From assembly GCA_903884005.1 (NCBI GenBank), contig CAISDA010000033.1:124001-188000 (forward strand): a stretch of DNA of 64,000 nt, in the 5' to 3' direction. Every line of letters begins with the position of its first letter. Position 1 is the stretch's first letter. The notes beneath the pieces are model-generated. The model was not told the origin of the DNA. It did not search any database and saw only the letters and a program-made list of their open reading frames with translations. The DNA comes from an uncultured Ignavibacteriota bacterium. GTDB lineage: Bacteria > Bacteroidota > Ignavibacteria > UBA10030 > UBA8401. Shown here in pieces: positions 9,704 to 54,172 of the stretch. The position numbers and the translations under genes are program-made.

Positions 9704-9727
9704 AAAGATGGCTGCCATTGGTAAATG

Positions 9728-13673: not shown

Positions 13674-13773
13674 GCATTATTTATTGCCGAACGCGATCCG
13701 GTTCGGAAGCGGCGCCACCGGCTATCCCCCGCAACGCACGGATGAGACAATCCTCACGAAGAACGATATTCCT

Positions 13774-14655
13774 ATGAACAAGCAGCAGTTCGAAAAGCTC
13801 CACTCGGCGATACAGGCGCACCTCGACTCGTTCACACCGACCGAACGGCGGATCGCATCCTACCTCATGGAGCAATCCAAAGAAATCGCCCTCGTATCGG
13901 TTCAGGAACTGGCGGTCCGATTGCACACGGGGCCGGCTTCGATCATCCGGTTTGTCAAAAAATTAGGATACGACGGACTGGCGGCCCTCAAAGCGGAACT
14001 GCGCGAGGATATTCGGACGGGCGGTTCCCCGTTGGCCCAATTTAAAAACACACTGGACCATGGGTTGGAGCCTGGATTGAAGGAGGTTCGGCTCATTGCA
14101 GGACAGGAAATTACGAACATCCAAAATTCCCTCTCAGTGCTGAGCGAGGCGACATTTGCAAAAACCGTTCAGATGATCATTAAGGCGGATCACATCTATA
14201 CCGTCGGGGTGGGAACCTCGGCGCACATTGCGGCGGTCACGTCGTTCCTGTTGCGCAGGATCGGACTTCGCGCCGACACGGTCACACACACAGGACTCAG
14301 GCTGACGGAAAGCCTCATCGGCATCGGGAAAAAAGATCTGCTCATCGCATTCTCATTTCCCCCGTATTCGGAATCAACACTCGACGCGGCGGCATTCGCG
14401 AAGCAGCAAAAAGCGTCCGTCATCGGCTTTACAAATGAAATGCTTGCACCGATAGCGGACCATTGCGACGCGCTCCTCATTGCGAAGACCGACAGCCGCA
14501 TCCCGGCAAACGCCATTTCAGCCCCGCTGTTGCTCGTCTCCGGCTTGATCTCTGTGGCCGCCGCCAAGACGCGCAAACGCTCATCCCAGGCGCTGGAAAC
14601 AACGATCCGCCTGCGCAAGCAGCGGACGAAATCCGCATCATCGTCAACCGACTAA
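13774..14655 (+). CDS. RpiR/MurR-family transcriptional regulator with SIS domain
   Basis: Cytoplasmic regulator of 293 residues. Residues 1-77 form an RpiR helix-turn-helix domain (FTPTERRIASYLME, then VSVQELAVRLHTGPASIIRFVKKLGY). Residues 105-255 form a SIS sugar-phosphate-binding domain (HIYTVGVGTSAHIA, LLIAFSFPPYSESTLDAAAFAKQQKASVIGFT). It should sense a phosphorylated sugar and control nearby genes; the leftward promoter and palindrome at 13622-13673 are the obvious target. I chose the ATG at 13774, where the domain begins; an earlier in-frame start at 13684 would add 30 unlikely residues. Its stop codon overlaps that of the convergent GH2 gene by four bases. One of only two plus-strand genes here. 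Confidence 0.88.
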   Translation: MNKQQFEKLHSAIQAHLDSFTPTERRIASYLMEQSKEIALVSVQELAVRLHTGPASIIRFVKKLGYDGLAALKAELREDIRTGGSPLAQFKNTLDHGLEPGLKEVRLIAGQEITNIQNSLSVLSEATFAKTVQMIIKADHIYTVGVGTSAHIAAVTSFLLRRIGLRADTVTHTGLRLTESLIGIGKKDLLIAFSFPPYSESTLDAAAFAKQQKASVIGFTNEMLAPIADHCDALLIAKTDSRIPANAISAPLLLVSGLISVAAAKTRKRSSQALETTIRLRKQRTKSASSSTD

Positions 14656-17318
14656 TTCAATCGTCTGATTTTAATTGCATTTAAGAACGTATAACCAGCC
14701 TCACGCTCAAACGATACCGTGATGCCTCTCAGATCTTTCGATTGAACAACGAATGTTTTGGGGATAGCGCTTAATACTCCATATTGCGCTGCCGGACAAA
14801 AATTTTCAAGACATGGCACGCCATTGATCGACACATTAAATTCGCTGGCTTCCTGCCCCTTTTCTTCGCTCGTGCTCACATCATAGATTGTTTTTGTTGC
14901 CGTCGTTCCGGGATCGGAAAAATGCAATTCAACTTCATATTCCCCATCGGCAACATCAAATTTATAGTCTGTTAATCCGTACCGAAATGTTTGATATAAG
15001 GGAACATTCCGGGTTTGAGCCACTTCCGACTGATGCCCGATCCTCTTTTCGGTTGATCTGAACACCTCACCGCCGACGTATCCGAAACTGCCGCGTGTAT
15101 ATGCCTGATCGGGCAGCCAGGTAGTGCTATTTATTGGATCGATAAAAAAACAATTGCTGCCGACATTGACGCCGAGTGTAAATGATTTTCCCTTAGCCCG
15201 ATTGAGCAGAGCCGGCAGTATTTCAAAGTCAATGCGCAGAGCATCTTCATACACAGCACCATCACGCAACCCTTTTGCAATAAATAAATTCTTCCCATCG
15301 ACAAACGGCGCGTTCCACACGGAAACACCTTTGACTATCTTCTGCGTGCCTAGCGATGTGCCATTCGCGAACAGCTCCACGTTGTCAAGATTTGAATATA
15401 TTTTTATGGGCTGTGTCACTGTGGTGTCACCCGCCGATGCCTGAATCCCCGTACGAATTGTCCAGTCACGACTGGCAATATGAATGACGGGTGTTTTAAG
15501 CAACCATGCCTGGTACAGTGAATAGACATCTTTCGGAATTCTATTGTTATAGAGCAATCCCTTATTGTTAATACGCGGCATGCTCTCCTGGCGGCCTCCG
15601 GACCCGAAGTCTATTAAGTTCCACACTGCGGCACCGGCGATATACGGTCTGCTGAATATTTGATCTACATACGACTCATGATACAGTTGCTGCCATTCAA
15701 TGCTGAAATCAAATTGTTCGGGTTTCAGACTATGCAAACGGCCATCCCCTCCTGCGCCAAATTCACTTATCAAGGAAATTATTTTGGGATATTCCGCATG
15801 TTCCTTGTCCATGAAGGAACCAAATTTATCGAAGCTGCCCGTGTACCAACCTGCATAATTGTTCCACCCTATTACATTGGGTATGGCAGATATTCCGGAT
15901 TTTTGATAAAGATCTCTTCCACCTGAATTCAGGGCCATCGTCGATACACGATTGTGGTCTTCACTATGAACAATGCTGTCTAATTCCCGCGCAAACTGTG
16001 CTGTACTTTCAATTACTTCCTGTTGATTGATTTTATCCGCCATTTTTACCGTTCCCAGGGCGATTTCATTCATATACCCCCAGATAATGATGCTCGGATG
16101 GTTAAAATTCTGACGTATCATCTCTTTCAGGCTGCTCACGCATGTCGCCTTCAGTTCAGCGTTTTCGTAAAAAGTGTTTCCGAGCGGCGTTTCCTCCCAC
16201 ACCAGGATCCCCAATTTATCACACATCTCGACAATTGTTGGATCTTGAGGATAATGACTGATACGCACAAAATTACCACCCATTTTTTTCAACATTTCCA
16301 TATCATGCCGGTGAAGATCATTGTCCAGCGCATTCCCTAATCCCATATAATCCTGATGACGACTGGCTCCTATGAGTTTTAGGCTTTTGCCATTGAGACG
16401 AAAACCGGAGTCCGGATGAAAACTACACCATCTGAAACCCAATGAATTGTTGATTTCATCGTACTCAACCGGTTTTTTATCGTCGGACAACAGTGTCGTT
16501 GTAACCGTGTACAAATAAGGGGATTCCGGCGACCATAAGCGTGGGCTGGCTATCGTTCCCGACACTTGTTGAAAATTCCCATTGGCACCCGCACGTACGT
16601 GCAGCGTTGTTGTAACTGCTGCAATTGTTTTCCCCGATTCATCTATTATCTTTGAGAGCACGCAGACATTTTTATTTTCAGCAGACTCATTACGTATTGT
16701 GCCTTTGATTTTTACCGTGGCACTTTTTTCGTTCACCTGGGGTGTTTCAATAAATATTCCATTCGACCCATAGTTCATCTGATCAAAATGCAGACGCTCG
16801 GTGCTCACCAAATAAGCGTCTCTATACAAACCGCCGAACATCGTGTAATCACCCGAAATGGGCGGCAACTGTAAATGGCCGCTGTTGTCAACTTTTACAG
16901 CGATGACATTCTTCCCGGGAATTGTAACCATCGTTGAAATATCACATGTAAAGGCTGTAAACCCGCCTTTGTGTTCTCCTGCCAATTTTCCATTCACATA
17001 AATTGCAGCCTTGACAAATGCTCCCTCGAAATTTAAAAACAGTTGTTTCGTCGCATATTTATTAGTGAGGTAAACATCTTTTCGATACCAGCCGACACCT
17101 CTGTAATACTGTTTTAATGTATAGGCGTCCGTTGCATTCCAGGTATGCGGTATGTTGACTTTTGTCCACGATGAATCGTTGAAAATCGATTGCTCCGCTC
17201 CCGATACGTCCTCGCGTATAAACCGCCATGATTCATTTATACTTTCTTTCGAACGTTGAGAAAAACAACAGAGCGTGCTCACAAGGAGTGCAGACAACAG
17301 TACAATTTTTGATCTCAT
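14652..17318 (-). CDS. GH2 beta-galactosidase/glucuronidase-like enzyme with malectin-like tail
   Basis: Exported glycoside hydrolase of 888 residues, family 2. Signal peptide 1-21. Then the sugar-binding jelly roll (WRFIRED, DSSWTKVNIPHTWNATDAY), an Ig-like domain and the TIM barrel. Acid/base Glu418 is in WGYMNE and nucleophile Glu519 in ISEFGAG, as expected for GH2. Residues about 735-888 form a malectin-like carbohydrate-binding module (NVGSNCFFID, YTRGSFGYVGGE, YEVELHFSDP). Beta-galactosidase or beta-glucuronidase activity is likely; the exact sugar cannot be read. The ATG at 17318 starts the signal peptide; an upstream TTG at 17345 is less likely. It lacks a T9SS domain, so periplasmic action fits. 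It follows a second GH2 gene by 51 bases. Confidence 0.87.
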   Translation of the reverse strand: MRSKIVLLSALLVSTLCCFSQRSKESINESWRFIREDVSGAEQSIFNDSSWTKVNIPHTWNATDAYTLKQYYRGVGWYRKDVYLTNKYATKQLFLNFEGAFVKAAIYVNGKLAGEHKGGFTAFTCDISTMVTIPGKNVIAVKVDNSGHLQLPPISGDYTMFGGLYRDAYLVSTERLHFDQMNYGSNGIFIETPQVNEKSATVKIKGTIRNESAENKNVCVLSKIIDESGKTIAAVTTTLHVRAGANGNFQQVSGTIASPRLWSPESPYLYTVTTTLLSDDKKPVEYDEINNSLGFRWCSFHPDSGFRLNGKSLKLIGASRHQDYMGLGNALDNDLHRHDMEMLKKMGGNFVRISHYPQDPTIVEMCDKLGILVWEETPLGNTFYENAELKATCVSSLKEMIRQNFNHPSIIIWGYMNEIALGTVKMADKINQQEVIESTAQFARELDSIVHSEDHNRVSTMALNSGGRDLYQKSGISAIPNVIGWNNYAGWYTGSFDKFGSFMDKEHAEYPKIISLISEFGAGGDGRLHSLKPEQFDFSIEWQQLYHESYVDQIFSRPYIAGAAVWNLIDFGSGGRQESMPRINNKGLLYNNRIPKDVYSLYQAWLLKTPVIHIASRDWTIRTGIQASAGDTTVTQPIKIYSNLDNVELFANGTSLGTQKIVKGVSVWNAPFVDGKNLFIAKGLRDGAVYEDALRIDFEILPALLNRAKGKSFTLGVNVGSNCFFIDPINSTTWLPDQAYTRGSFGYVGGEVFRSTEKRIGHQSEVAQTRNVPLYQTFRYGLTDYKFDVADGEYEVELHFSDPGTTATKTIYDVSTSEEKGQEASEFNVSINGVPCLENFCPAAQYGVLSAIPKTFVVQSKDLRGITVSFEREAGYTFLNAIKIRRLN

Positions 17319-17369
17319 AGAATCAATTCCCAAATAATTAACCAACTACAGCGCCGTTCATTTCCAACC

Positions 17370-19841
17370 CTATCGGCCGATGATCAGATATTCCCCCTTG
17401 AAATCCTGATTGCGCGCTTCGATCACTGCGCGGCCGGCGGCTGCAGGTTCAAATTCGATCTGCGCTTTGCCGTTCGCCATTTCAATGATCGAACTGCGCG
17501 TCGGGGTCCCGTAATTTTCAATGAGCCGCCCCGGTCCGTCGTGCGAAAAATAAATGCGCTTGTTATAATCGAGACAGCGCGTTCCATCCTTATCAACCGC
17601 AACAGCCGTCACGAGCACATGTCCCGTCTTCAGTTGTTCGGAGGAAAGGACGATATGGTCCGCGGTGTCGTTCTTTTTGAAGCTATAGTGCACGGCAATT
17701 GAGTCGACTGCTTTTTTCTTTGCCCCTGTTACTTCCACTGCAACGATCGTATTGTCGCCCTCGGTAAATTGCACCTGCCAGCTCAATCCGCACGCCGGAA
17801 AATTCTTTATGTCGCGCGTCTTTTTACCCAGGCTCGTTCCGTTGTGGAACAACTCAACTTTCGCACAGTTGCTGAACACATTCACTTCCCGTTTCACGTT
17901 CGCCGGTCCGCTGCGTTCGGTCCATGTGTGCGATTCGATATAGCAGAATAACGGCGACGTTGTCCAGTAGCTCTTGAACACGTAGTACGCGTCTTTCGGA
18001 TTGCCGGCGCGGTCGACCAATCCTTTTTGATTCATGTACGGTATCGGATTTTCGGGCCGCAGCGGCGTCGGGAAATCTTTGAACGCCCATTGTGCATTTC
18101 CCGTTAAAAAGTCCAATCGCTCCGACACATGGAGGTCCCAATCGAAAAGGTCGACGATGTAATTTTCGCTCCAGTCGCTGTTTTGCGACACATTCTTCAC
18201 TTTTTGAGGTTTGATGTTCTCTTCGAATCCGTCGGACACGGTTGTGGCGTCGCCCGTCACCGGGTTTTCGCTGTGCCGTCCGAAGTGGCTGTCGCCTCCG
18301 TATTCCACATGGACCAGGTGAGCATACTTGTCCTTTGCATCGGTGATCGCCTTTTCAAATCCTTTATAATTGCCAGAGTACCATCCGGGCCAGATCGACG
18401 GCGACACGACATCCACAAGGTCCGCGCCTTCGGTGAATTTCCTGGTCGAAGTGAGGCGGGATGGATCGATCGCATGGGCGATGCCGTTCAGTTCCCCGAT
18501 CATTGCGCGTAATGAATCCATGTTATCGCCGTCCGGAACATCGGGCAGCCAGTAGAGCTCGTTGCCGAGCGAGTGGAATATGATGCTCGCATGATTGAAA
18601 TTCTGTTCGACCTGTTCTTTCAATAAGCGTCTCGTATTCGCCTTCCATGCTTCCCCGCCCATGCCGCCGCGGCACCACGGCAGCTCGTCCCATACGAGGA
18701 TACCGAGTTCGTCGCATGCGCGGTATACTTCCGGCGCCTGCGGATAATGGGCAAGGCGCACGAAGTTGCCGCCCATCTCCTTGATCATTCTCATGTCTTT
18801 TCGCTGGAGACTGTCCGGCATCGCGCTGGCATATCCCGCATAATCCTCATGACGGTGAGTGCCGCGCAAGAGGAGACGTTCGCCGTTGAGGTAGAACGGA
18901 CCATGCTCTTTGATTTCGAACCACCGGCATCCGAAACGATCGGCTGTTTCATCGATCGTTGTTGAGGACTGCCGCAGCTGCACACGCACGGTGTAGAGCG
19001 CAGGATCGTTTGGCGACCACAACAAAGGGTTCTTGATCGCCGATAATGGAAATTTCACGACCGATTCGCCGCTCGATATTTTTTGTTTCACGGATGTCTT
19101 CGCGACCTCTTTGCCTGTCCGGTCGAGCGTGACCGCCGTGAGCTCGTACAAGCCCTCGCTGCCGGTCGTATTCTGCATGACCGCTTCAACGCCAACCGAG
19201 GCGGATGTTTTGGACACCTCTGATGTGCCGATCTTCACTCTGTTCACGAACACCGGCGGCACAACTTTCAGCCAGACGTTCCGTGTGATGCCGCCATAGA
19301 TGCAAAAATCCGATTTCTGTGACGGAATGAGATCCGGATTGTACTCGTTCGTTGCACGCACGAGGATCGTGTTCAGTTCGCCCTTGCGCACAAACGGCGT
19401 GATGTCCACGTCGAAACCGACGTATCCACCCGCATGCCCTCCGGCACGCATCCCGTTCACGAACACTTCGCTCGAAATATTCACTCCCTCGAACGAGAGA
19501 ATGAATCGGAGCTGGTTCGTGCACGCCGGTATCGTGAGTTCTTTTTTATACCAGCTCGCAGAGCGCCGGTACCCCGGTTCGGCATCGACCGCATCCCAGA
19601 GGTTCCACGTATGCGGAAGATCCACCGCTTCCCACACCGCCTTCGTTTCCGACACGTCCTTGACCTGCGCGCAATCATCCTGGAGATACGACCAATGCGC
19701 GTTCAAGGCAAACACCTGCCGCTGCGCCTGGTCTTTGATCGCGGGATCGATCGCACCGGTTCGTCGTTCCTGAGCATTCAGTGCGGTCAGTGCTGCGATC
19801 GCACAGAAAACGATCAGAAATAAATATTTTTTCATCGTCAT
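17370..19841 (-). CDS. GH2 family beta-glycosidase
   Basis: Exported family 2 glycoside hydrolase of 823 residues with signal peptide (MKKYLFLIVFCAIAALTALNA). It shows the sugar-binding domain (VDLPHTWNLWDAVD, ASWYKKELTIP), the central Ig-like domain and a TIM barrel with acid/base Glu428 (SLGNELYW) and nucleophile Glu513 (HVEYGGD). The C-terminal region (650-823) has further Ig-like domains seen in many Bacteroidota GH2 enzymes. It is only distantly like the neighbouring GH2, so the two probably cut different bonds. ATGs at 19841 and 19835 are both possible; an in-frame extension to 20057 would run into the previous gene and is rejected. It starts 26 bases after the GH88 fusion gene, so co-transcription is likely. 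Confidence 0.87.
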   Translation of the reverse strand: MTMKKYLFLIVFCAIAALTALNAQERRTGAIDPAIKDQAQRQVFALNAHWSYLQDDCAQVKDVSETKAVWEAVDLPHTWNLWDAVDAEPGYRRSASWYKKELTIPACTNQLRFILSFEGVNISSEVFVNGMRAGGHAGGYVGFDVDITPFVRKGELNTILVRATNEYNPDLIPSQKSDFCIYGGITRNVWLKVVPPVFVNRVKIGTSEVSKTSASVGVEAVMQNTTGSEGLYELTAVTLDRTGKEVAKTSVKQKISSGESVVKFPLSAIKNPLLWSPNDPALYTVRVQLRQSSTTIDETADRFGCRWFEIKEHGPFYLNGERLLLRGTHRHEDYAGYASAMPDSLQRKDMRMIKEMGGNFVRLAHYPQAPEVYRACDELGILVWDELPWCRGGMGGEAWKANTRRLLKEQVEQNFNHASIIFHSLGNELYWLPDVPDGDNMDSLRAMIGELNGIAHAIDPSRLTSTRKFTEGADLVDVVSPSIWPGWYSGNYKGFEKAITDAKDKYAHLVHVEYGGDSHFGRHSENPVTGDATTVSDGFEENIKPQKVKNVSQNSDWSENYIVDLFDWDLHVSERLDFLTGNAQWAFKDFPTPLRPENPIPYMNQKGLVDRAGNPKDAYYVFKSYWTTSPLFCYIESHTWTERSGPANVKREVNVFSNCAKVELFHNGTSLGKKTRDIKNFPACGLSWQVQFTEGDNTIVAVEVTGAKKKAVDSIAVHYSFKKNDTADHIVLSSEQLKTGHVLVTAVAVDKDGTRCLDYNKRIYFSHDGPGRLIENYGTPTRSSIIEMANGKAQIEFEPAAAGRAVIEARNQDFKGEYLIIGR

Positions 19842-19867: not shown

Positions 19868-22144
19868 TTATTTCACCCACAGCAGCGGCTGCTTGAGCGG
19901 AATATTCCTCTGCACTTCGGCATCTGCCGGATCGGGATCGAGCTGCTTCCAGAGGCCGATGTATTTTTGTTCGTTGAACGCGATGCCTGCAAAGAGCAGC
20001 ATCGGCCGACGGGACGGGAATCCGTCGAAATGCATCACATCTTTCGCGAACGGCCATGTCGTTTTGTCGGCAATGTAGGGATACATGAACGCCATCCCTT
20101 TCCTCATGTTCCGGCCGTCGGGCAGCGTGAAATTCCAGAGATCGTCCCCGGGCGTCGACAGTGTCTGGCAGATGATGGCAAATCCTTCGAGATCAAAAAG
20201 AGAATAATTGTACGGCTTTGTCCGCTTCAGCTCCAACGGGAAACTGCCGTCAGCGGCCATCTGATCCGGCATCAACACGGTCTTGAACCGTTCGCGGCAC
20301 GACGTCTGCAGAAGAGTGTCGCCAACGCAGTGCGCGAACGCTGCGACTTGCGTGACCCACCATGTGCCGTGATTGTTCTTGGCATTGCGCTCATCCATAC
20401 CGTACTGATGCGTCGTCAGCCAGGCAATATATTCCTTAAACCATTTCATAATGGCGGCGCGTGTCGCTTCGTCCATCGACTTTGAATCCCGCAGGATCTC
20501 CAACGCCCGGGCCACATCGATCAAATGGATTGTGTCTATGATCCCCGTGCCGCGGCCGGTGAATCGTCCCTTGATCGCCTGAGCGTACAGCAGATGCGGA
20601 TTCATCTTCGTTGCCGCATCGATATACCACGCTTTCAGATGTTTGATCGCCTGCGCCGCATAGCGCTCGTCACCAGTCAATGTGTAGGCTGCGGTCAGGC
20701 TCGATACGGCTTTCACGAAGTGGAACATCACTTCCCGGTGTTTCACAAAGTTGTCGGGATTCGTCATTCCGTCGCGCTGAATATACGCGCTGTCCGCACT
20801 CTTCGGATTAGGCCACCAATAATCGCCCTCCGAAAAATAATCGTGAATCCCCCCTGCGCTTCGCGGCGAAAGATACGCCGTGATGGTCACCGGTTCTTCC
20901 TTCATCAATTGCGCCGCGACTGCAAGAATGCGGTCCCGCTCGATCGCCGCAACATCAACGGTCACCGCATTCATTCGGTCAAGCCGCGTTAACGCCTCGA
21001 GGAAATAATAATCGCCATAGATCAACGACACATCGATCTCACCTTTCGCCGGTTTGTGCCCCGTGGAATGGTTCAGAATGGCGTGCGACGGCGTTCCTTG
21101 TGCAAGGTACGGCGGACCGCTGAGCGCGCGAAGAATCTTGGTCGCCGCATCGTAATATTTTATTTTCAACTCCGGGCTCGCCACGACTGTGCTAAGCTCG
21201 AGCATGCCCGATGCCGCAATGGCCGCAGCCGATGCATCGCGCGGTTCGTTCGGAATCTTGGGCGCCTGAAAATCCCAATACGGCACAAAGTCCGCCGGCA
21301 AGTGTGCGATAAAATAATCCGCAGTGTGCTGCGCCGTGTTCAGGAAGCGCTGATCCTTCGTGAAACGGTATGCCGCCGTGAATCCATAGAGTGCCCACGC
21401 TTCGCCGCGCGCCCAGCACGACGAATCGGCATACCCCTGATTTGTGCCTCTGGTGAGCACCGTGCCGTTCGTCGTATCATACCCGACGACATGGTACGTG
21501 CTGTAGTCCGGCCTGAAGTGATTCTTCATTGTATGCTCCGCGTGGCTGAACGCAGCATCGTACATAGCCTGCGTTCCGCCGTTCTGCGACGCCCAGAAGA
21601 GCAGTTCCAGATTCATCATGTTATCGATGATCACCGGATACGGCCATCGTCTGTTATCCCACGATTTGATCACACCGGCGACGGGATTATACCGTGTCAT
21701 CAACGTTCGGGCGGTCTGGAGCAGCACCTTTTTGTACTGTTCATTCTTTGTCAACCGGTAACCGTTGCCGTAACTGCAAAAGATCATGAACCCGATATCG
21801 TGGGAACCACCCCACGATTGAATCCTCTCCAGTCCCTGCGTCCATCGCTCGGCAGCATCTTTATAGAACGGGTCGTTCGATGCTTCAAAGCCATACCAGA
21901 GGCACCCCGGAAAAAACCCGCTCGTCCAATCGAATATATTTTCAGAATGCCATCTTCCATCGGGAAACGTGCTCCGCGGATATTGAAGCGTGTCGCCCAA
22001 TTCCGTGACAGTGCGCTTCAGTTGCTGCTGAGCGAACGGCCTCGCGTGTGCGATACCCGGATCCTTTGCCTGTGCACTCACCAGTGAACATCCTACAGCG
22101 CAGCAGACAAGCAAGGCGACCGCGTTCCGTGTCATTCGTCTCAT
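19868..22144 (-). CDS. GH88-type unsaturated glucuronyl hydrolase fused to alginate-lyase-like domain
   Basis: Exported two-domain enzyme of 758 residues. Signal peptide 1-24. Residues 30-395 resemble GH88/GH105 unsaturated uronyl hydrolases: Asp116 in GGSHDIGF and Asp174 in IDNMMNLELL fit the two catalytic aspartates, and CWARGEAWALYGF is typical. Residues 400-758 resemble the alpha-toroid alginate/glucuronan lyases (PF05426, PL38/PL5-like): SPRSAGGIHDYFSEGDYWWP, NNHGTWW (590-596) and RPMLLF. A lyase creates the 4,5-unsaturated end that GH88 enzymes remove, so one polypeptide may do both steps. The reading frame is continuous, so this is a true fusion and not a sequencing join. AGGAA nine bases before the ATG supports the start. 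It sits 16 bases after a sulfatase gene. Confidence 0.83.
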   Translation of the reverse strand: MRRMTRNAVALLVCCAVGCSLVSAQAKDPGIAHARPFAQQQLKRTVTELGDTLQYPRSTFPDGRWHSENIFDWTSGFFPGCLWYGFEASNDPFYKDAAERWTQGLERIQSWGGSHDIGFMIFCSYGNGYRLTKNEQYKKVLLQTARTLMTRYNPVAGVIKSWDNRRWPYPVIIDNMMNLELLFWASQNGGTQAMYDAAFSHAEHTMKNHFRPDYSTYHVVGYDTTNGTVLTRGTNQGYADSSCWARGEAWALYGFTAAYRFTKDQRFLNTAQHTADYFIAHLPADFVPYWDFQAPKIPNEPRDASAAAIAASGMLELSTVVASPELKIKYYDAATKILRALSGPPYLAQGTPSHAILNHSTGHKPAKGEIDVSLIYGDYYFLEALTRLDRMNAVTVDVAAIERDRILAVAAQLMKEEPVTITAYLSPRSAGGIHDYFSEGDYWWPNPKSADSAYIQRDGMTNPDNFVKHREVMFHFVKAVSSLTAAYTLTGDERYAAQAIKHLKAWYIDAATKMNPHLLYAQAIKGRFTGRGTGIIDTIHLIDVARALEILRDSKSMDEATRAAIMKWFKEYIAWLTTHQYGMDERNAKNNHGTWWVTQVAAFAHCVGDTLLQTSCRERFKTVLMPDQMAADGSFPLELKRTKPYNYSLFDLEGFAIICQTLSTPGDDLWNFTLPDGRNMRKGMAFMYPYIADKTTWPFAKDVMHFDGFPSRRPMLLFAGIAFNEQKYIGLWKQLDPDPADAEVQRNIPLKQPLLWVK

Positions 22145-22160
22145 GTTCTATTCCTATTCC

Positions 22161-23576
22161 TCAATTACGTGTGTGGGTTGCGATGAACGGGTCATTGTTT
22201 TTTTTACCCCATTCCGCCAAATAGCTCCGGTGCTGCTCGAGTATTGCTTTGTATTCGGGGTTCCCTGCCAGGTTATGCATTTCACCCGGATCCTGCTCGA
22301 GATCGATCAATATTTCATTGCTATCGCCAAGGTCGAACGTGCAATATTTATAGTTCGCGCTGCGCACCATTCGTCCGCTCGGTTCGGGCTTTACTCCGTC
22401 GATCGGTTCGCCCTGGATCATCTTGTTTTCGACGACAATATATTCCCGTCTTTTTTCTTCCTTCACGACATTGACACCGGGATACGTGCGAGGCAGCGAG
22501 ATCCCGGCAAGGCCGCACAGTGTCGGCAGCATGTCGATTCCGGTGTTGACCAGATTGTTGTTCATCGCGTTGGCGCGTTTCCCCGGTTCGCTGATGATCA
22601 GCGGGACTCTCGTTGATTCTTCAAAGAACACCGTCTTCTGACTCCATCCATGCGCCCCCTGCATATCGCCATGATCGCTCATAAACACGACGATCGTATT
22701 ATCGTACTGTCCGGAGTCGCGAAGCGATTGTATGACCTTCCCGACCAGCGCGTCAACTTTTTCGATCAGTCGGTAATAGACCCACCGGTACTCGCGCCAT
22801 TTCTTTTCGTCGAAATCGCCGACCGGAAACAATTTATTGCTCTGGAAAGATTTTTTCATGAGCCGCAGAAGGTCCGGCTCATGTTCCATCTGCGCGTGAT
22901 TGGCGATCAGCGGCGGACATTCCTCCACCGTGGGCGGCGTTCCCACCTCGCCGTCGGGCAATTCCTGATCCCTGGGCCATTCGCAAATATTATGGGGATT
23001 GACGAACGACGTGACCAGCAAAAAAGGTTTTTCTCTTTTTATTTTTAAAAATTCTTCTGCGCCTGCCGGTATGTCGTTGTCCGCCCCGACATTCTTAATG
23101 TCGCGCATGAACTCGAACCCGTGCGTGGAAGCATCCTTTACGGGAAAGGCGATATGCCACTTGCCGATGTACCCGGTATCGTATCCCCCCTCCTTAAAGA
23201 TCGTTCCCATGTTTTTGATCTTGCCCGCAAGCTGCTCCGTGATATCCGAATTCGTCTGCACCTTGGTCTGATGCGGATATAATCCGGTGAAGATGGACGT
23301 GCGGCATGGAACACATAATGGGTTCGCCGCATAGGCGTGCGTGAAGACGGTCCCTTTCGAGGCGATCTCGTCCATCACGGGCGTGTTAAGATATTTTTTT
23401 CCGATCACCCAGCTCATGGCATCGGCAGACAACTGGTCTGTCATGATGAGCAGAATATTGGGTCGTTTTCCCTCCGATACTGTCCCTAAGGGCAAGGCCT
23501 TCCCAAGCATCTTCGGTCCGATGAGGGATGCCCCCGCAACGGCCCCGGCAGCGAGAATGAATTTTCTTCGATCCAT
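22161..23576 (-). CDS. Tat-exported sulfatase, S1 family (CVPCR variant)
   Basis: Formylglycine-dependent sulfatase of 471 residues. The N-terminus has a twin-arginine signal (MDRRKFILAAGAVAGASLIG). The N-terminal metal site starts at MTDQ (Asp47). The modification site is CVPCR at 88-92: Cys88 would become formylglycine. Most family members have Ser or Ala where Cys91 stands. GKWHIAFP and SDHGDMQGAHGW are further active-site segments. ATGs at 23576 and 23582 and a GTG at 23597 are possible; I chose 23576 because the paralogous sulfatases also begin MDRR. It removes sulfate esters from a polysaccharide in the periplasm; which position is unknown. It is followed closely by the GH88 fusion gene. 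Confidence 0.87.
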   Translation of the reverse strand: MDRRKFILAAGAVAGASLIGPKMLGKALPLGTVSEGKRPNILLIMTDQLSADAMSWVIGKKYLNTPVMDEIASKGTVFTHAYAANPLCVPCRTSIFTGLYPHQTKVQTNSDITEQLAGKIKNMGTIFKEGGYDTGYIGKWHIAFPVKDASTHGFEFMRDIKNVGADNDIPAGAEEFLKIKREKPFLLVTSFVNPHNICEWPRDQELPDGEVGTPPTVEECPPLIANHAQMEHEPDLLRLMKKSFQSNKLFPVGDFDEKKWREYRWVYYRLIEKVDALVGKVIQSLRDSGQYDNTIVVFMSDHGDMQGAHGWSQKTVFFEESTRVPLIISEPGKRANAMNNNLVNTGIDMLPTLCGLAGISLPRTYPGVNVVKEEKRREYIVVENKMIQGEPIDGVKPEPSGRMVRSANYKYCTFDLGDSNEILIDLEQDPGEMHNLAGNPEYKAILEQHRSYLAEWGKKNNDPFIATHTRN

Positions 23577-23735
23577 GATCATTTCATCTTTCTTCACATG
23601 AACGCAGTGATTTCAAGCATCAGCGTTTAATGGATGGCATAGAGTTGTCGGCAGTATGAACGAGAAGCTTCGGCGACCGCGATAGAACGAACATATCGCA
23701 GCATCCCAACTGAATCATCGGTGGCGAACAACGTA

Positions 23736-25097
23736 TTATTTATCGTCGTCTTCCGACTTTTTTTTCTTTTTCTTGTTCGCGTGACGGCCCGTGCCGTCTC
23801 CCTCGTCCAGAATGCCGCCCGCTGGATTCAATTGGTCCAACGCCGCCTGCAGGCGCGTTCGCACGGCAGCGATGGCCGGATCCTTCGATTCTGCAGGGAC
23901 AAGCTTTTCCTCAAAGGGTGCACCGGTCATATCAAACAAGTCGCCCGTACGGGTGAGTTTCCATTGTTCATCGCGCACGTACCACTGAGCGGCGAGCTGA
24001 ACGTAGGCCCAGTCGCGGGGCTTGCTTCTTTCGCCGCGGATCCTCGGTGCGAAGCTGTGTCCGTCGATCTTGACATTCTGCGGAAGCGTCGCTCCCGCCA
24101 CTTCGGCGAACGTCGGAAGGAAGTCCGTCGAATCGATCAAATCGTCACAGACCTTACCGGCGGGAGTGACGCCCGGCCAGTTGACGATCAACGGTTCGAG
24201 GCTGCCGCCTTCGAGCATGCTGCCTTTTGCACCGGATAGACGCCGGCCGCCGATCTGTGCCCGGTCGGCACGGCCATTGGCCGTACCGTTGTCGCCGAAG
24301 AACACGAGCAGCGTGTTTTCGCGCAGCTTCAAGCGCTCGAGTTCCGCGACAAGCTTTCCGACGAGTTTGTCCATATACGCGATATTGTCGGCGTACAGAT
24401 CCTTGCTGTCCGGCGCGCTGTCCGGCGTGGGCAAAATTTCCGTATGCACTTCCGACAAGGCGTAATAGACGTAAAACGGATCGTCGCGGTGCTTCGCAAG
24501 AAATTCCATGAGATGCGCATGCATCACATCGGGCATGTATTCTTTGTCGTGGAGGATTTTTTCTTCGCCGTTCTGAATATACGTTTTGCCCTTGAGCTGC
24601 GTGTTCCAGTAGATGCCGCTGCCTTTAAATTGAAGATAGTCGTCGAAGCCAAAATCCCCCGCCTCCTGCGGAAGCTGCCCCCACTTGCCGATCATTGCAG
24701 TGACGTAGCCGGCAGGCTTCAGAATTTCCGGCATCATCGTTTCTGCGGCAGGTGTGAATTGCCCTGTGGCATCCTGGTTCGTGGCACCCGTGCGGAACGC
24801 GTAGCGGCCCGTCAGAATGCACGCGCGGGAAGGACCGCACAGGGACGGCGTATACGCATGGGTGAAGCGTGTGCCCTCGCGGGCCAATTTGTCGATATGA
24901 GGCGTCTTGTAATTGTCCGCCCCATAACAACTCACTTCGCCGATACCCAGATCGTCTGCAAGAATGTAAATGATGTTGGGCTTCTTGCCGTTCAACAGCT
25001 GACCCGGGAAAAACCCCTTGCCCATGACAAGATTGCCCGCAATAAGTGTCCCTGCAGCCGCTGCTCCCGCCGCTATGATGAAATTCCTTCTATCCAT
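23736..25097 (-). CDS. Tat-exported sulfatase, S1 family
   Basis: Sulfatase of 453 residues with a twin-arginine signal (MDRRNFIIAAGAAAAGTLIAG). It has the metal pair ADDLG (Asp48-49), formylglycine motif CGPSR with Cys87, GKWG and FFGDNG. The last residues are an odd charged tail with six lysines in a row followed by SEDDDK. AAAGGGA six bases ahead of the ATG at 25097 decides the start; an ATG nine codons upstream at 25124 lacks such a site. It is one of five sulfatases in this cluster and not a close copy of its neighbours, so each probably removes a different sulfate. Substrate unknown. Confidence 0.88.
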   Translation of the reverse strand: MDRRNFIIAAGAAAAGTLIAGNLVMGKGFFPGQLLNGKKPNIIYILADDLGIGEVSCYGADNYKTPHIDKLAREGTRFTHAYTPSLCGPSRACILTGRYAFRTGATNQDATGQFTPAAETMMPEILKPAGYVTAMIGKWGQLPQEAGDFGFDDYLQFKGSGIYWNTQLKGKTYIQNGEEKILHDKEYMPDVMHAHLMEFLAKHRDDPFYVYYALSEVHTEILPTPDSAPDSKDLYADNIAYMDKLVGKLVAELERLKLRENTLLVFFGDNGTANGRADRAQIGGRRLSGAKGSMLEGGSLEPLIVNWPGVTPAGKVCDDLIDSTDFLPTFAEVAGATLPQNVKIDGHSFAPRIRGERSKPRDWAYVQLAAQWYVRDEQWKLTRTGDLFDMTGAPFEEKLVPAESKDPAIAAVRTRLQAALDQLNPAGGILDEGDGTGRHANKKKKKKSEDDDK

Positions 25098-25243
25098 GAC
25101 TATCCCTTTGTCTTTGAACTCCATGAACGATAACGATCATTGTGCCGGCACCGTTTCACATTCTAATGTAATTCTTTTCCCGGCACCAGAGAAGCAGTCA
25201 TCGGTGTACTTTGCGCAATCTACCGTTGACTGCGTTGAATTGA

Positions 25244-26779
25244 TCAGGGTTTCGCTTTCTGCCATCCCGCAGTCAATTGCACGTGCAACAGGGCAACCAG
25301 CTCTTTGTTCTCCGGATTGTCAACGATGCATTCTTTGCAGATCGGATCATTCTTCAGATCGTACAGTTCACGGGCAAGGATATCCTTTGTATTCAGATCG
25401 ATCCATTCATTGTAGCGATATTGATCGGTCCTCATGGAATATCCCATGATCTTGTTCTTGCCGCGCGGATACTGGCTGAATGCCGCCGCTTTCCACTTCT
25501 TCTTCGGCTCGCTCATGAGCGGAACGAAGCTCGTCCCTTCCAGATCGTTGGCCACGGGCAGGCCGCAGAGTTCGGCAAGCGACGGATAGATGTCGACAAA
25601 TTCCGTCAGCGCCGGCACGCGTTCGCCTTTCGGATAATCCGGATCGGAAATGATCATGGGGACGTGCGTGTCAAATTCGAAATTCGTATGCTTGCTCCAT
25701 TCCGAGTATTCGCCGAGCTTCCAGCCATGATCGCCCCAGACGATCACGATCGTGTCTTTGCGAAGATCCAATCGATCGAGTTCAGCCATGAGCTTGCCGA
25801 CCTGCGCGTCCATATAGCTCACGCACGCATAGTATCCGTGTATCAGCTCGCGTGTTTTCGCCTCATCGCACACTCCCACATCCGGTATATCCGAATACGA
25901 CCGAAGTTCGCCCCAGCCGGCGAAGGCAAGGTCCGGAGCGTGGTGCGGATGCTCGGGATACGGCATGACGATCTTCGAACGATCGTAGAGGTCCCAATAT
26001 TTTTTCGGCGCGACGAAGGGGAGGTGAGGCTTCCTGAAACCGACCCCGAGAAAAAACGGCTGATGCTCCGCCTTATTGTTCGATTTCGCTTTCGGCGCGA
26101 GACGGCGAAGCGACTCGATCGCCATTTCGGAATACATGCCATCCTCGTAGACATTGTCCGCAACATCGGCGCATTCGGTGGCCGGACCGCGCATGCGCCC
26201 GCCTTCTTCCTGCTCGTCTTTGTTCGTCTTCGTTACTTTACCGCCCTCTTTCTTCAGGTTGTTGTTCGCATCAAGCGCGTACTGCTCGGCTTTCGCGTAC
26301 CGGTGGGGGGTGCTGTACGACGGTTCGTCTTCATAGCCCGCATGGAACAGCTTGCCCATGGCTTCCGAGAAATATCCGTTGTTCTTGAAATGCTGCTGCA
26401 GCGTCACCACCGAGGGCATCGTCGTCCTGATGTGTGTCTTGAGATCGTAGATGTGCGTCGTGTCCGGCCGCTTCCCCGTCAGGAGGCTTGCGCGTGTCGG
26501 CGCGCAGACAGCCTGCTGGCAATACGTGCGTTCGAAGAGGATGCCGTTCTTTGCCAGCGCATCGATGTTCGGAGACTTGACCATCGGGTGGCCATAGCAT
26601 CCCAATTCCGGCCGAAGATCATCGACGGCGATAAAGAGAACATTTTTTCTTCTGGCTGCGATCGAATTCAGTGCTGCTGCATTCTTGCCGAATAATTTAG
26701 TAAGCGGTGAAAGGCCCACTATTCCCGCGACACCGAGAGCAGCGGAGTGCGTTAAAAATTCCCTGCGTGTTTGGCTCAT
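25244..26779 (-). CDS. Iduronate-2-sulfatase-like sulfatase
   Basis: Sulfatase of 511 residues from the iduronate-2-sulfatase-like branch of family S1. Signal TRREFLTHSAALGVAGIVG is of Tat type. Metal pair VDDLRPELGCYG (Asp53-54), formylglycine motif CAPTRASLLTG with Cys92, then KLFHAG, GFRKPHLPF, WGDHGWKLGE and KHTNFE segments typical of iduronate-2-sulfatases. Such enzymes remove 2-O-sulfate from uronic acids in glycosaminoglycans or in ulvan. AGGAGTG stands right before the ATG at 26779. The presence of this branch among uronic-acid lyases supports a sulfated uronate-containing substrate. The precise sugar is inference. Confidence 0.88.
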   Translation of the reverse strand: MSQTRREFLTHSAALGVAGIVGLSPLTKLFGKNAAALNSIAARRKNVLFIAVDDLRPELGCYGHPMVKSPNIDALAKNGILFERTYCQQAVCAPTRASLLTGKRPDTTHIYDLKTHIRTTMPSVVTLQQHFKNNGYFSEAMGKLFHAGYEDEPSYSTPHRYAKAEQYALDANNNLKKEGGKVTKTNKDEQEEGGRMRGPATECADVADNVYEDGMYSEMAIESLRRLAPKAKSNNKAEHQPFFLGVGFRKPHLPFVAPKKYWDLYDRSKIVMPYPEHPHHAPDLAFAGWGELRSYSDIPDVGVCDEAKTRELIHGYYACVSYMDAQVGKLMAELDRLDLRKDTIVIVWGDHGWKLGEYSEWSKHTNFEFDTHVPMIISDPDYPKGERVPALTEFVDIYPSLAELCGLPVANDLEGTSFVPLMSEPKKKWKAAAFSQYPRGKNKIMGYSMRTDQYRYNEWIDLNTKDILARELYDLKNDPICKECIVDNPENKELVALLHVQLTAGWQKAKP

Positions 26780-26833: not shown

Positions 26834-28585
26834 TTAATGCGACCACGGCCAGGGCTTGGCTTTTATCCTGATCGCTTCACGCTCCCACAGTCGCGATAAC
26901 TCTTTCACTTTCTCCGCGTGCGTCGGCGCCAGATCGTTCGTCTCGGACGGGTCCCGATCCATATCGTATAATTCCCATGCGCGTTCATCTTCCGGTGTGA
27001 ATTTTTTCCTCGTCTCCACCTTCGCAACGAGCTTCCATTGATCCACTCTGATGGCGCGATTACCGACGTGCTCCCAGAAGAGATAGTCGCGTTTGATCGG
27101 CTTATTGCTGAATGCCGGCACGAGACTCTTGCCTTCAATGGGTTGAATGGTATGTCCGTTAAATTTCTGCGGATACGGAACACCGGTGATCTCGAGGCAT
27201 GTCGCCATGATATCGATGAGGTGGGAATTTTGCGTCCGCAGTTCGCCTTTCGCGGCAATGCCAGCCGGCCACTGCACGATCAGCGGCGAAGCAATTCCGC
27301 CTTCATGCACCCATTGCTTATACATGCGGAATGGCGTATTGCTCACATTCGCCCATTCAATGCCATACGCCGTCCATGTATCGGGGCCGCCGGGCATCAC
27401 GCCTCGTCCGCTCCGCACAAATCTCCCGTCACGCGTGTAGGCCGGTACTTTTCCCAAAAAAATGGATTCCGCAGGGATCGGCTTCAGCACTTTCTGCGCA
27501 TCGGTCAAGGGAACTTCCGGTGCTTCGACGCCCTGGGGTTCGGCGCATCCGCCGTTGTCGTGCATGTAGAAGATGACGGTATTGTGAAGTTCTCCGTTTT
27601 GTTCGAGCGCCGAAACGATGCGGCCGATTCCTCCATCCATGATGCTGATCATTGCAGCATACACTTCCATGCGGCGCGCCTGCCACTGCTTCATCGTCTC
27701 ATCCTTCCACGCCGGGATCTCGACCCCCCGCTCGGTGAGCACGCACTGGTCGCTGATGATACCCAATTCTTTCAGCTTCGTAAACCGCCGGACACGCATC
27801 GAGTCCCATCCGACATCGTACATGCCCTTGTATTTTTGCACTTCGTTCTCGGGAGCATGCATCGGCCAGTGCGCGGCCGTATAGGCGACGTAAAAGAAAA
27901 ATGGTTTGTCCTTCGGATGCTCATTGATAAATTTTACCGCCGTATCGCTGATCGCGTTCGTGTAATAGAAATCCTTCGTGGGCGGAACGAATGTATTATT
28001 GCTGATCAACGTGCCGGGGTCGTAGTAACTGCCCGAGCCGTTCAGCGTACCGAAGTAGCGCTGGAACCCCCGCTGACACGGCCAATTGCTCTTGTCTCCG
28101 TCCTTCGCCAGGTTTTTCGCGATGTGCCATTTTCCCGTCATGTATGTCGCGTAGCCCGCCTGCTGAAACACTTCCGCCATGGTGACAGCGTTCTTACTCA
28201 GATCGTCGCGATATCCCTCTTCCTCGTAGTTCTCCGTCGCAAGCATACCCATCTCGGCCTCATGCGCATACAAGCCGGTCAGTAACGATGCGCGCGAGGG
28301 ACTGCACCGCGCCGTGTTATAATAGTGCGTGAACCGAACGCCGTTGCCCGCGAGCTTGTCTATATTCGGTGTACGTATTTCGGATCCATAGCACCCGATA
28401 TCGGAAAATCCCATGTCGTCCGTCAAGATCACCATTACATTCGGACGCTTGTTCCTCGCCTGCGCATCCATGAGTGATGGCTTCAGCCAGGCAAGCGCCA
28501 GGAGCGCTGTGAATACCAATTTTAAAGTCTGTGCGCGCAAGTGCCGCACCCGTTTTCTCAACGACGATGTTCGTGAGTTGTGCAT
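26834..28585 (-). CDS. Arylsulfatase A-like sulfatase
   Basis: Sulfatase of 583 residues, arylsulfatase A-like (probably the S1_4 type). Unlike the four neighbours it has a Sec-type signal with a long basic n-region (hydrophobic core about 22-40) and no twin Arg-Arg-x-Phe motif. Metal pair TDDMGFSDIGCYG (Asp56-57), formylglycine motif CSPSRASLLTG with Cys94, GKWHIAK, HDNGGCAEPQG and the lid-like segment around FVRSGRGVMPGGPDTW typical of this group. GGGAGA six bases before the ATG at 28585 supports the start. It presumably desulfates fragments in the periplasm. It follows a PL6 lyase gene, with a dispersed hairpin between them. Confidence 0.88.
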   Translation of the reverse strand: MHNSRTSSLRKRVRHLRAQTLKLVFTALLALAWLKPSLMDAQARNKRPNVMVILTDDMGFSDIGCYGSEIRTPNIDKLAGNGVRFTHYYNTARCSPSRASLLTGLYAHEAEMGMLATENYEEEGYRDDLSKNAVTMAEVFQQAGYATYMTGKWHIAKNLAKDGDKSNWPCQRGFQRYFGTLNGSGSYYDPGTLISNNTFVPPTKDFYYTNAISDTAVKFINEHPKDKPFFFYVAYTAAHWPMHAPENEVQKYKGMYDVGWDSMRVRRFTKLKELGIISDQCVLTERGVEIPAWKDETMKQWQARRMEVYAAMISIMDGGIGRIVSALEQNGELHNTVIFYMHDNGGCAEPQGVEAPEVPLTDAQKVLKPIPAESIFLGKVPAYTRDGRFVRSGRGVMPGGPDTWTAYGIEWANVSNTPFRMYKQWVHEGGIASPLIVQWPAGIAAKGELRTQNSHLIDIMATCLEITGVPYPQKFNGHTIQPIEGKSLVPAFSNKPIKRDYLFWEHVGNRAIRVDQWKLVAKVETRKKFTPEDERAWELYDMDRDPSETNDLAPTHAEKVKELSRLWEREAIRIKAKPWPWSH

Positions 28586-28718: not shown

Positions 28719-30185
28719 TTATTTTCCATTCACTTGCCAGGAGGGACCGACATTTTCACCCCGAAGGATGTCTTCGTGTGCATTCTGAGACAGGCCATAG
28801 GCACCCGGCGAAGGAAGCACACCCGTGGTACCCTGAGCGGGTTCGCGCATCGTGAAGCCGTTCGCAGCCGACGGCACAGTCACTTTTCCACCGATGCAGA
28901 CATTGCCCGAGAATTTATTCGGCCGGAATTTCACGACATCGAACGGCGGGGTCATGTCCTGTGCGGTTTCTTCGACAACGTCGCGGCCGGGAGCCTTTAC
29001 AATGAAATTGTTTGCAATTGCATTATGTTCAGGAAGGAGGATCAGCTGCGCCGCGGGCCATTTGTTCTTGTACCGATAGCCCATGACGAAGTCGGGGCCT
29101 TCGCTGTTCACGAGCGTGTTATTCGCAATTACACAATCGTGCACCCAGCCATACGTCGCCATGCGTCCGAGGGGCGCGTCCGGGGATAATTTGGGTTCGT
29201 ACGAGCCCGTCAAACCTTTTTCGATGTACTCGCCGCACATCAAGCGGATGCCGCTCTGACAGTCCCGGATCACATTATTGACGATCGTATGCCCGTGACC
29301 CGCAATGCGTATCCCCCACGATCTGGGCCCCTTCTCCCCGAGAATGACGTTGCCCTCGATGCGATTGCCATCGCCCATGCGCAGCGATATCTCGCCCTGC
29401 GACGCACGAATGATGTTGTTACGCACGATATTGCTGTCGGATTTCAACGAGATGATCTCCGTGCCCTCGCCATCGGCGTGGTCGAAGAGATTCTGCTCGA
29501 TCATGAAGAACGCGCCCTTCTCTCCCTTCCCGCGCACATCGTGATGCCCATAACCGAAGATGCGGAAGATCTCGCGCCCGTTGTTGTCGGCAATATAGGG
29601 AATGTCTCTGACCACGCAATGGTCGACCCGGTTGTGCCGGCTGCCCTCATCATCATTGCCGACCACGGGCTCGTTGTTGCTCTTTCCCGTGAGGAGGCAA
29701 TGGTCCATTCTGTTCGCATTTCCCGCAAAATACACGTAATAATATTTCGTCATCGGATCGGCGGTCGTGAAATCGACGATAGCCGATTCCGTCAGCCTGC
29801 AGTTGTCGGCATTGAAGCGGACGACGGCGAAATATTTTTTGTCATACGTTCCGCCTCCGTCTTTGAAGCAAAGCCCTGACACGGTCTGCCATTTCGCAGA
29901 AAAGACGAGCTGCGATGTTCCGCGCAGAATGACGGCGCCGTTCGTCTCGGCTTTCAGGCTCACCGGCGCAGAGACTGTGCCCGGCTTCGTCATGTCGATA
30001 CGCACGTCCTGCCAGATGCCGTTCTTCATCACGATCGTCGTCCCCGGCCGTGCTGCGGCAAGCGCCGCGTGTAATTCTTTTGCATTTGAAACGCGTGTTT
30101 CCGCCGCTGCAAGCCCGGACATGACAATACCGCAGCACACCACCATCCGCATCACTCTGTTCATTGTTCGATTATGTAATACCAT
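28719..30185 (-). CDS. PL6 polysaccharide lyase (alginate lyase/chondroitinase B type), no sorting domain
   Basis: Exported parallel beta-helix lyase of 488 residues. Signal peptide 1-28. PL6 hallmarks: NRMDHC, NRVDHC, catalytic Lys248 in EIISLKSDSN and Arg269 in EISLRMGDGN. The first of the two calcium-binding acids found before the catalytic Lys in PL6 (ExE at -7/-5) is Gly here, so metal use may differ. It would beta-eliminate within a uronic-acid polymer (alginate or dermatan-like). It ends without a T9SS domain, so periplasmic. AGAGGG just before the ATG at 30185 supports that start over later ATGs at 30164 and 30152. It follows a sulfatase by 66 bases. Confidence 0.85.
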   Translation of the reverse strand: MVLHNRTMNRVMRMVVCCGIVMSGLAAAETRVSNAKELHAALAAARPGTTIVMKNGIWQDVRIDMTKPGTVSAPVSLKAETNGAVILRGTSQLVFSAKWQTVSGLCFKDGGGTYDKKYFAVVRFNADNCRLTESAIVDFTTADPMTKYYYVYFAGNANRMDHCLLTGKSNNEPVVGNDDEGSRHNRVDHCVVRDIPYIADNNGREIFRIFGYGHHDVRGKGEKGAFFMIEQNLFDHADGEGTEIISLKSDSNIVRNNIIRASQGEISLRMGDGNRIEGNVILGEKGPRSWGIRIAGHGHTIVNNVIRDCQSGIRLMCGEYIEKGLTGSYEPKLSPDAPLGRMATYGWVHDCVIANNTLVNSEGPDFVMGYRYKNKWPAAQLILLPEHNAIANNFIVKAPGRDVVEETAQDMTPPFDVVKFRPNKFSGNVCIGGKVTVPSAANGFTMREPAQGTTGVLPSPGAYGLSQNAHEDILRGENVGPSWQVNGK

Positions 30186-52118: not shown

Positions 52119-52202
52119 AGGTGGTATCCTCATATGCATGTATACGTTGATTTTTTATTAGTTGCGATCTTTTTCCGTGGCGGTTCGGGCCGATCGTCCG
52201 CG

Positions 52203-53948: not shown

Positions 53949-53987
53949 TAATTTTCGATGATCTGTTTGAAATTGTAAATGACAGTA

Positions 53988-54172
53988 ATACTCAGTGTGC
54001 ACAAATATCATTGTCATCCTAAGGTTTCATCTTGGCTGCGCCAAGAATCTTCATGCATATGACATCAGTACTCTGTCATTCTGAGCGCAAGCGAAGAATC
54101 TTGCATCGTGTGAGCAGCCGGCAAGATTCTTCGGTCGCTCGAGCTCCTTCACAATGACACGGCTGGGTGTGT
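53988..54172. repeat. MITE-like palindromic element, composite copy
   Basis: Starts with ACTCAGTGTGCACAAATATC and CATTGTCATCCT like the copies at 50616 and 57317. Inside, CGAAGAATCTTGC (54092-54104) pairs perfectly with GCAAGATTCTTCG (54121-54133), nested within TGTCATTCTGAG and CACAATGACA, making a long hairpin. The right end looks degraded. No coding capacity. Confidence 0.6.

Follow-up and report, generated by a model that had tools for sequence, protein, structure and literature searches.

One gene in this locus raises the question of whether two consecutive steps in the breakdown of an acidic polysaccharide can be carried on a single chain, and whether such a join is genuine. The window, i.e. 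the whole stretch of 64,000 nucleotides that we analyzed, contains on its minus strand a single frame with an ATG start, 758 codons, and no internal stops. The initial annotation had described this gene as one continuous frame linking a GH88-type domain to a PF05426-like lyase domain, and a domain search of both halves bears this out, as each half matches a Pfam family and solved structures. Specifically, PF07470 (Glyco_hydro_88) matches residues 65–344 with 49.1 bits against a cut-off of 26.6, PF05426 (Alginate_lyase) matches residues 422–697 with 287.2 bits against one of 22.2, and the fusion protein matches no NCBIfam family at E 0.001. The features of the gene are as follows.

19868–22144, minus strand: GH88-PL38 fusion gene, 758 amino acids, one frame with Pfam PF07470 and PF05426 and both folds in the model
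22070–22144, minus strand: signal-peptide-like N-terminus, residues 1 to ~25, with the hydrophobic stretch AVALLVCCAVGCSLV
20966–22063, minus strand: GH88 domain, residues ~28–393 (3wiw, Z 47.1)
21797–21799, minus strand: GH88 catalytic Asp116, in the motif HDIGF (PDB mutant titles D88N, 2fv0, and D115N, 3vxd)
21623–21625, minus strand: GH88 catalytic Asp174, in the motif IIDNMMN (PDB mutant title D175N, 3ani)
20954–20968, minus strand: junction, residues 393–397, with a near-zero linker
19871–20956, minus strand: PL38 lyase domain, residues 397–758 (3nnb, Z 36.5; 8bdq, Z 36.4)
20369–20374, minus strand: PL38 catalytic Asn591-His592 (BoPL38 N242/H243), unchanged in all 28 of the aligned PL38 rows
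20204–20206, minus strand: PL38 catalytic Tyr647 (BoPL38 Y298), invariant in the same 28 rows

The N-terminal half belongs to GH88: its Pfam match exceeds the cut-off, its nearest folds are those of GH88 enzymes, and both catalytic Asp residues are present. A sequence search of the PDB aligns 3wiw to residues 38–393 (9.1e-101), and the same structure superposes on residues 27–393 with Z 47.1 and an rmsd of 2.4 Å over 358 residues at 45% identity (VIA-align 2). Overall, nine rows of GH88 structures score Z 36.7–47.1 against this half, with 29–45% identity. PF07470 is common to GH88 and GH105, and a GH105 identity is ruled out by structure scores that fall behind those of GH88. The GH105-type rows (1nc5 and 2gh4, i.e. 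YteR, which we take to be GH105, together with 4wu0, 3qwt, 3pmm, and 4xuv) reach Z 27.8–29.7 with 12–16% identity, under the cellobiose 2-epimerases (Z 30.7). Asp116 and its HDIGF motif align with the HDIGF of 1vd5, and the 2ahf group has Asn at that position. By its title, 3wiw is a heparin-specific GH88, and it shares the Asp motifs and the whole N-terminal domain with the window protein; however, it is a stand-alone chain of 402 residues with no lyase, whereas the GH88 of the window is joined to one. The whole-chain model (AlphaFold2, 19-row alignment) has a pLDDT of 82.5, with low-confidence stretches that include residues 424–432, 438–441, 457–462, and 522–532, and the placement of the two domains relative to each other is unsettled because its pTM is only 0.68.

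The C-terminal half proves to be a lyase of the PF05426 type, as annotated, and its fold narrows this to a PL38-like lyase. A model of this half alone (28 rows) has a pLDDT of 91.0 and a pTM of 0.91, with low confidence at its residues 135–137 and, as in the whole-chain model, in the loop of Q522. It superposes on 3nnb with Z 36.5 (3.1 Å over 348 residues) and on 8bdq with Z 36.4 (3.0 Å over 345), and residues 397–758 of the whole-chain model give Z 33.6 against 8bdq (3.0 Å over 334; VIA-align 2). By sequence, the nearest PDB entries are 3nfv/3nnb (BACOVA_01668; residues 407–708 for 3nfv, 1.2e-59) and BoPL38, 8bdq (5e-45). All BoPL38 and BACOVA_01668 rows score Z 34.5–36.5, compared with 25.5 for the best A1-III alginate lyase (presumably PL5) and 23.2 for the best PL17. 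Structures of PL38 therefore lie far above both groups, and a PL5 or PL17 identity, about 11 Z points or more lower, is ruled out.

The Tyr/His/Asn set expected of such a lyase is present (Tyr647, His592, and Asn591), and Asp116, Asp174, and the NNHGTWW motif (residues 590–596) are all found where the initial annotation had put them. Positions Y91, D108, Q173, N242, H243, and Y298 of BoPL38 correspond to Y442, D458, Q522, N591, H592, and Y647 of the window protein, and all six are invariant in the 28 PL38 rows. The BoPL38 residues mutated in PDB entries, by title, are Y91, D108, Q173, N242, H297, and Y298. Proton abstraction in BoPL38 is assigned to Y298 and H243 in the available text of PMC13169297. 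The residue just before the catalytic Tyr, His297 in BoPL38 and the target of the mutation in PDB 9fi1, is replaced by Asn646 in the window and by Gly in BACOVA_01668, and this position is variable among the 28 rows. Given Asn646, activity on alginate cannot be assumed. BoPL38 and BACOVA_01668 (an alginate lyase by its PDB label) keep the catalytic Asn/His/Tyr in common with the window protein at 28–30% identity, but both are stand-alone chains, while the PL38 of the window is joined to GH88.

The N-terminus is signal-peptide-like by hydropathy only, with a mean of 2.66 in the hydrophobic stretch vs at most 0.87 near the GH88/PL38 junction. Relatives with two separate genes (e.g. G255, G214, and G218) have a stop and a signal-peptide-like stretch at the position of the junction; in G255, for example, the GH88 stop is followed by such a stretch and then by PL38. 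The window fusion has neither the GH88 stop nor the internal signal-peptide-like stretch, which fits a single export of the protein as one unit. The fusion enzyme is most likely exported, with the periplasm as its predicted compartment.

Beyond the fusion itself, the surrounding genes encode further enzymes for polysaccharides.

13684–14655, plus strand: MurR/RpiR-like transcriptional regulator (match below the curated cut-offs)
14652–17345, minus strand: another GH2 gene, which also encodes a malectin domain (Pfam)
17370–19841, minus strand: GH2 glycosidase directly downstream of the fusion, likely start 19841, gap of 26 bp
22161–23597, minus strand: PF00884 sulfatase (nearest solved 3b5q and the 2-O-glycosaminoglycan sulfatase 5g2t)
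23736–25124, minus strand: PF00884 sulfatase (Pfam)
25244–26779, minus strand: PF00884 sulfatase (nearest 6hhm, then the iduronate-2-sulfatase 5fql)
26834–28585, minus strand: PF00884 sulfatase (Pfam)
28719–30185, minus strand: PL6/chondroitinase-B-type lyase, PF14592 (nearest 7o79)
30252–31775, minus strand: PF00884 sulfatase (Pfam)
31779–32912, minus strand: anaerobic sulfatase maturase (TIGR03942, 440.3 bits, cut-off 349.45)

Upstream of the fusion, the genes on the same strand thus include five PF00884 sulfatases, the maturase, and two of the four PL6/chondroitinase-B-type genes of the window. These four are all on the minus strand (28719–30185, 32977–34680, 50709–52139, and 52203–54017), and two have a T9SS sorting tail. 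A gene for an alpha-L-fucosidase (GH29-type) lies at 54211. The genome of the window has three PF07470 matches, among which the sole one found with P0001 is the fused copy, and one KduI-family match.

We propose, with a probability of roughly 0.78, that the gene encodes an exported bifunctional enzyme in which the PL38 half makes a 4,5-unsaturated uronate end and the GH88 half then removes it; both activities and the common substrate are predicted from the folds, the catalytic sets, and the repeated fusion described below. A lyase cut of the PL38 kind yields a 4,5-unsaturated uronate by established chemistry. In the proposed sequence of events, the PL38 half would cut the glycosidic bond of a 4-linked hexuronate by beta-elimination, with Tyr647 and His592 handling the proton and Asn591 presumably neutralizing the carboxylate, and the unsaturated residue would be left at the new nonreducing end. 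The GH88 half (D116 and D174) would then hydrate this residue so that it leaves as 5-keto-4-deoxyuronate. The sugar behind it would thereby become accessible, and the adjacent GH2 enzyme could remove that sugar. Sulfatases and PL6-type lyases from this gene run would prepare or cleave the remainder of the polymer, a sulfated uronate polysaccharide. Release of the unsaturated residue as 5-keto-4-deoxyuronate is described for GH88 in the available part of PMC12269599. The idea in the initial annotation that the lyase produces what the hydrolase consumes is thus supported, at the level of substrate class, by the GH88 and PL38 folds and their catalytic residues. The benefit of the fusion is probably a matched dosage and co-localization of the two consecutive steps.

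The sulfatases in the gene run suggest that the polymer is sulfated, and the substrate is probably a sulfated uronate polysaccharide. Accessible portions of the literature give alginate and glucuronan as PL38 substrates, with hyaluronan and, weakly, chondroitin sulfate added recently (PMC13027841), and also activity on glycosaminoglycans that are not of the heparin type (PMC11790493). With 28–30% identity and N646 in place of H297, these substrates cannot be carried over to the window protein.

Both halves could instead be active on different polymers or linkages, with GH88 trimming the ends left by other lyases (e.g. those of the PL6 type), in which case the fusion would share only export and dosage. 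The four chondroitinase-B/PL6-type genes in the window are in favor of this explanation, which we nevertheless regard as improbable, given that the same two families are joined in four groups and in both orders, and that GH88 lies near PL38 more often than the PL6-type cluster does. Among the best 80 of 258 relatives, all 80 loci contain PL38, and GH88 is found in the fetched DNA of 40, i.e. in the PL38 frame in two (L007 and L026) and in another frame in 38, although this sample was ranked against the whole fusion and may favor loci with both enzymes; the fetched DNA of the other 40 has no GH88. Gene clustering of the window with these best 80 of 258 finds the PL6-type cluster in the window and 12 of the 80. 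By the same clustering, GH2 is present in the window and 38 of the 80 loci, GH29 in the window and 33, and the GH95 and GH31 clusters in 29 loci each.

PL38-GH88 fusions occur in at least seven genomes or records (G000, G001, L007, L026, G186, G218, and G714), in a census that sampled 22, 294, 395, 32, and 294 genomes, partly overlapping, and in which only suspect frames were read. They form four groups, i.e. GH88-PL38a (group A, the window and G001), PL38a-GH88 (group B, L007 and L026), and PL38b-GH88 twice (group C, G186 and G218; group D, G714). In group B the order is reversed, with PL38 before GH88 in the same frame. The lyase that precedes GH88 in G186 and G218 is from the PL38b clade, about 34% identical, and G714, which belongs to another family, has a PL38b-GH88 fusion of 780 codons. 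The group B frames (L007:7989–10205 and L026:7974–10184) start almost at the PL38 domain without a clear signal peptide, unlike those of the window, G186, G218, and G714. Export is therefore not to be expected of every fusion, and those of group B may be cytoplasmic enzymes.

Several long frames turned out to be something else. Those of G255 (798), G214 (845), and G210 (865) have stops between the genes, that of G691 (809) is two frames, and G637 (870) and G663 (1171) have a PL38 with extra N-terminal sequence and no GH88 in the frame. None of 14 further suspect regions (G608, G820, G698, G734, G872, G810, G755, G609, G817, G327, G269, G078, and G085, plus G663 reread) contains PL38 and GH88 in one frame. 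In G218 (L142:6169–9810), a PL38a gene comes right after the fused PL38b-GH88, in frame with it and separated from it by a single stop codon.

Given these groups, we asked how many separate unions they represent. In the careful PL38 tree (79 rows), groups A, B, and C are each one clade (100/99), D joins C among the 19 PL38b rows (100/100), and the fused and unfused states require four changes; a quick tree, built from 69 rows that did not include D, requires three, and long branches, including G714, are flagged in the PL38 trees. The GH88 trees require more, i.e. six changes in the careful tree (70 rows) and five in the quick one (69 rows), with the unfused L099 (G255) inside group A and, in the quick tree, C interleaved with unfused genes. 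AU tests on GH88, for groups chosen after the trees were seen, reject A with C (P = 2.4e-9), are compatible with A alone (P = 0.228) and with B and D together (P = 0.259), and keep C alone as borderline (P = 0.054). A single fusion for C and D is allowed by PL38 (P = 0.503) but rejected by GH88 (P = 2.8e-58), and we do not retain it. On these alignments, there appear to have been at least three separate PL38-GH88 unions, and most simply four. The lyases of B and D are in different PL38 clades, so a later lyase swap could reduce four unions to three; both later splitting and a swap between B-like and D-like proteins could have taken place.

That one half is catalytically dead and now has only a structural or binding role is very unlikely. 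The change of BoPL38 H297 to Asn646 would fit this explanation, as would a precedent from Bacteroides intestinalis, the known lyase fusion PL-CE, for which no lyase activity was found on xanthan or its oligosaccharides, as summarized in the accessible part of a review (PMC10881899). However, the H297 position varies across PL38, and the other residues are kept. Six fused proteins were tested for motifs (window, L087, L007, L026, L103, and L124), and all carry NNHG together with the two GH88 Asp motifs; the PL38 Tyr motif is present in five, with the sixth, L087, cut by a contig end before it. A seventh, L165 (G714), has NNHA and HYS in its translation. Between the window and G001, the NG86 dN/dS is well below 1 in both halves (0.18 over 366 GH88 codons and 0.11 over 225 codons of PL38), values that are only rough because dS is above 1.

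The initial annotation would have been refuted if the fusion were a sequencing error absent from related genomes, but it is there in G001, the only other member of the genus among the 22 genomes of the family search. The GH88-PL38 frame of G001 runs for 623 codons until the contig stops (base 7513), which leaves no more than 229 residues from the start of the PL38 half, and is 67% identical to the window protein over query residues 4–625. One frame with both domains is thus present in more than one genome, and the copy in the window is complete. An assembly or sequencing error that merged two adjacent genes is scarcely credible and is rejected, even with both genes in-frame in G255 and G214 and separated by a stop and a signal-peptide-like stretch only, since the junction aligns with no gaps in this second genome of the genus, at 67–70% protein identity, and so is not the error of one assembly, and since a single base error does not explain the loss of a whole signal peptide.

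For the bifunctional enzyme, the closest known systems use separate proteins. In Akkermansia muciniphila, PL38 enzymes (Amuc_0771 and Amuc_0778) and the GH105 Amuc_0863 perform the same two consecutive reactions on glycosaminoglycans, but as two separate proteins and with GH105, whereas the window has one chain with GH88 (PMC11790493, accessible part). Likewise, the available text of PMC12269599 describes BcPL35 followed by BcGH88 of Bacteroides caccae as a lyase-GH88 tandem on one polymer, chondroitin; these are separate proteins, and the lyase is from another family than PL38. PL38 and GH88 are also mentioned as separate genes in the accessible part of PMC13274419. The initial annotation knew of no well-studied example of the fusion, and in keeping with this, our search of mainly open-access literature found no description of PL38 and GH88 on one chain in the text it covered. 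It is possible that CAZy lists this architecture without its having been discussed. Both families are known, and what is new is their repeated fusion, in both orders.

A lyase and an unsaturated-uronyl hydrolase are consecutive steps in the bacterial use of acidic polysaccharides, carried out by separate proteins in the published cases found, as far as their accessible text goes. That the pair came to lie on one chain repeatedly is good evidence for a common target molecule of these clades of PL38 and GH88, and it narrows the search for the substrate. The fused chain would also be a natural one-pot enzyme for 5-keto-4-deoxyuronate, and a model for whether fusing consecutive steps speeds them. 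More tentatively, and in our view less likely than not, PL38 and GH88 may, along with the adjacent GH2 and GH29, make up a modular pathway that degrades a single widespread uronate polysaccharide yet to be named, where passing the unsaturated end directly from lyase to hydrolase gives a real advantage. Consecutive steps would then have been welded repeatedly (GH88-PL38, PL38-GH88, GH88-GH2, GH29-GH88, and GH31-PL38), and a single fused enzyme would take the polymer all the way to free 5-keto-4-deoxyuronate.

Two proteins of the window, of 991 and 754 amino acids (6743–9718 and 41019–43283, both on the minus strand), lie beside TonB-receptor and PorV-like genes and have no Pfam matches at 1e-5. 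Among the related loci, other joined frames are seen. GH88-GH2 frames of about 1185 amino acids adjoin PL38 genes in L138:2614–6168, L139:1380–4934 (minus strand), and L140:1620–5171, and their GH88 domains are about 37–39% identical to that of the window. GH29-GH88 frames are present in L010:9073–12117 and L020:9105–12182, the GH88 part of L010 being recognized by BLAST and not by Pfam. GH31-PL38 frames occur in L023:5724–9065 and L073:5838–9107, a melibiase-PL38 frame in L059:6342–9266, and a GH88-esterase frame in L073:10956–13520. Lastly, G817 has a frame of 1512 amino acids (L174:1208–5743, minus strand) with a GH88 domain at residues 893–1230 and unassigned sequence on both sides.
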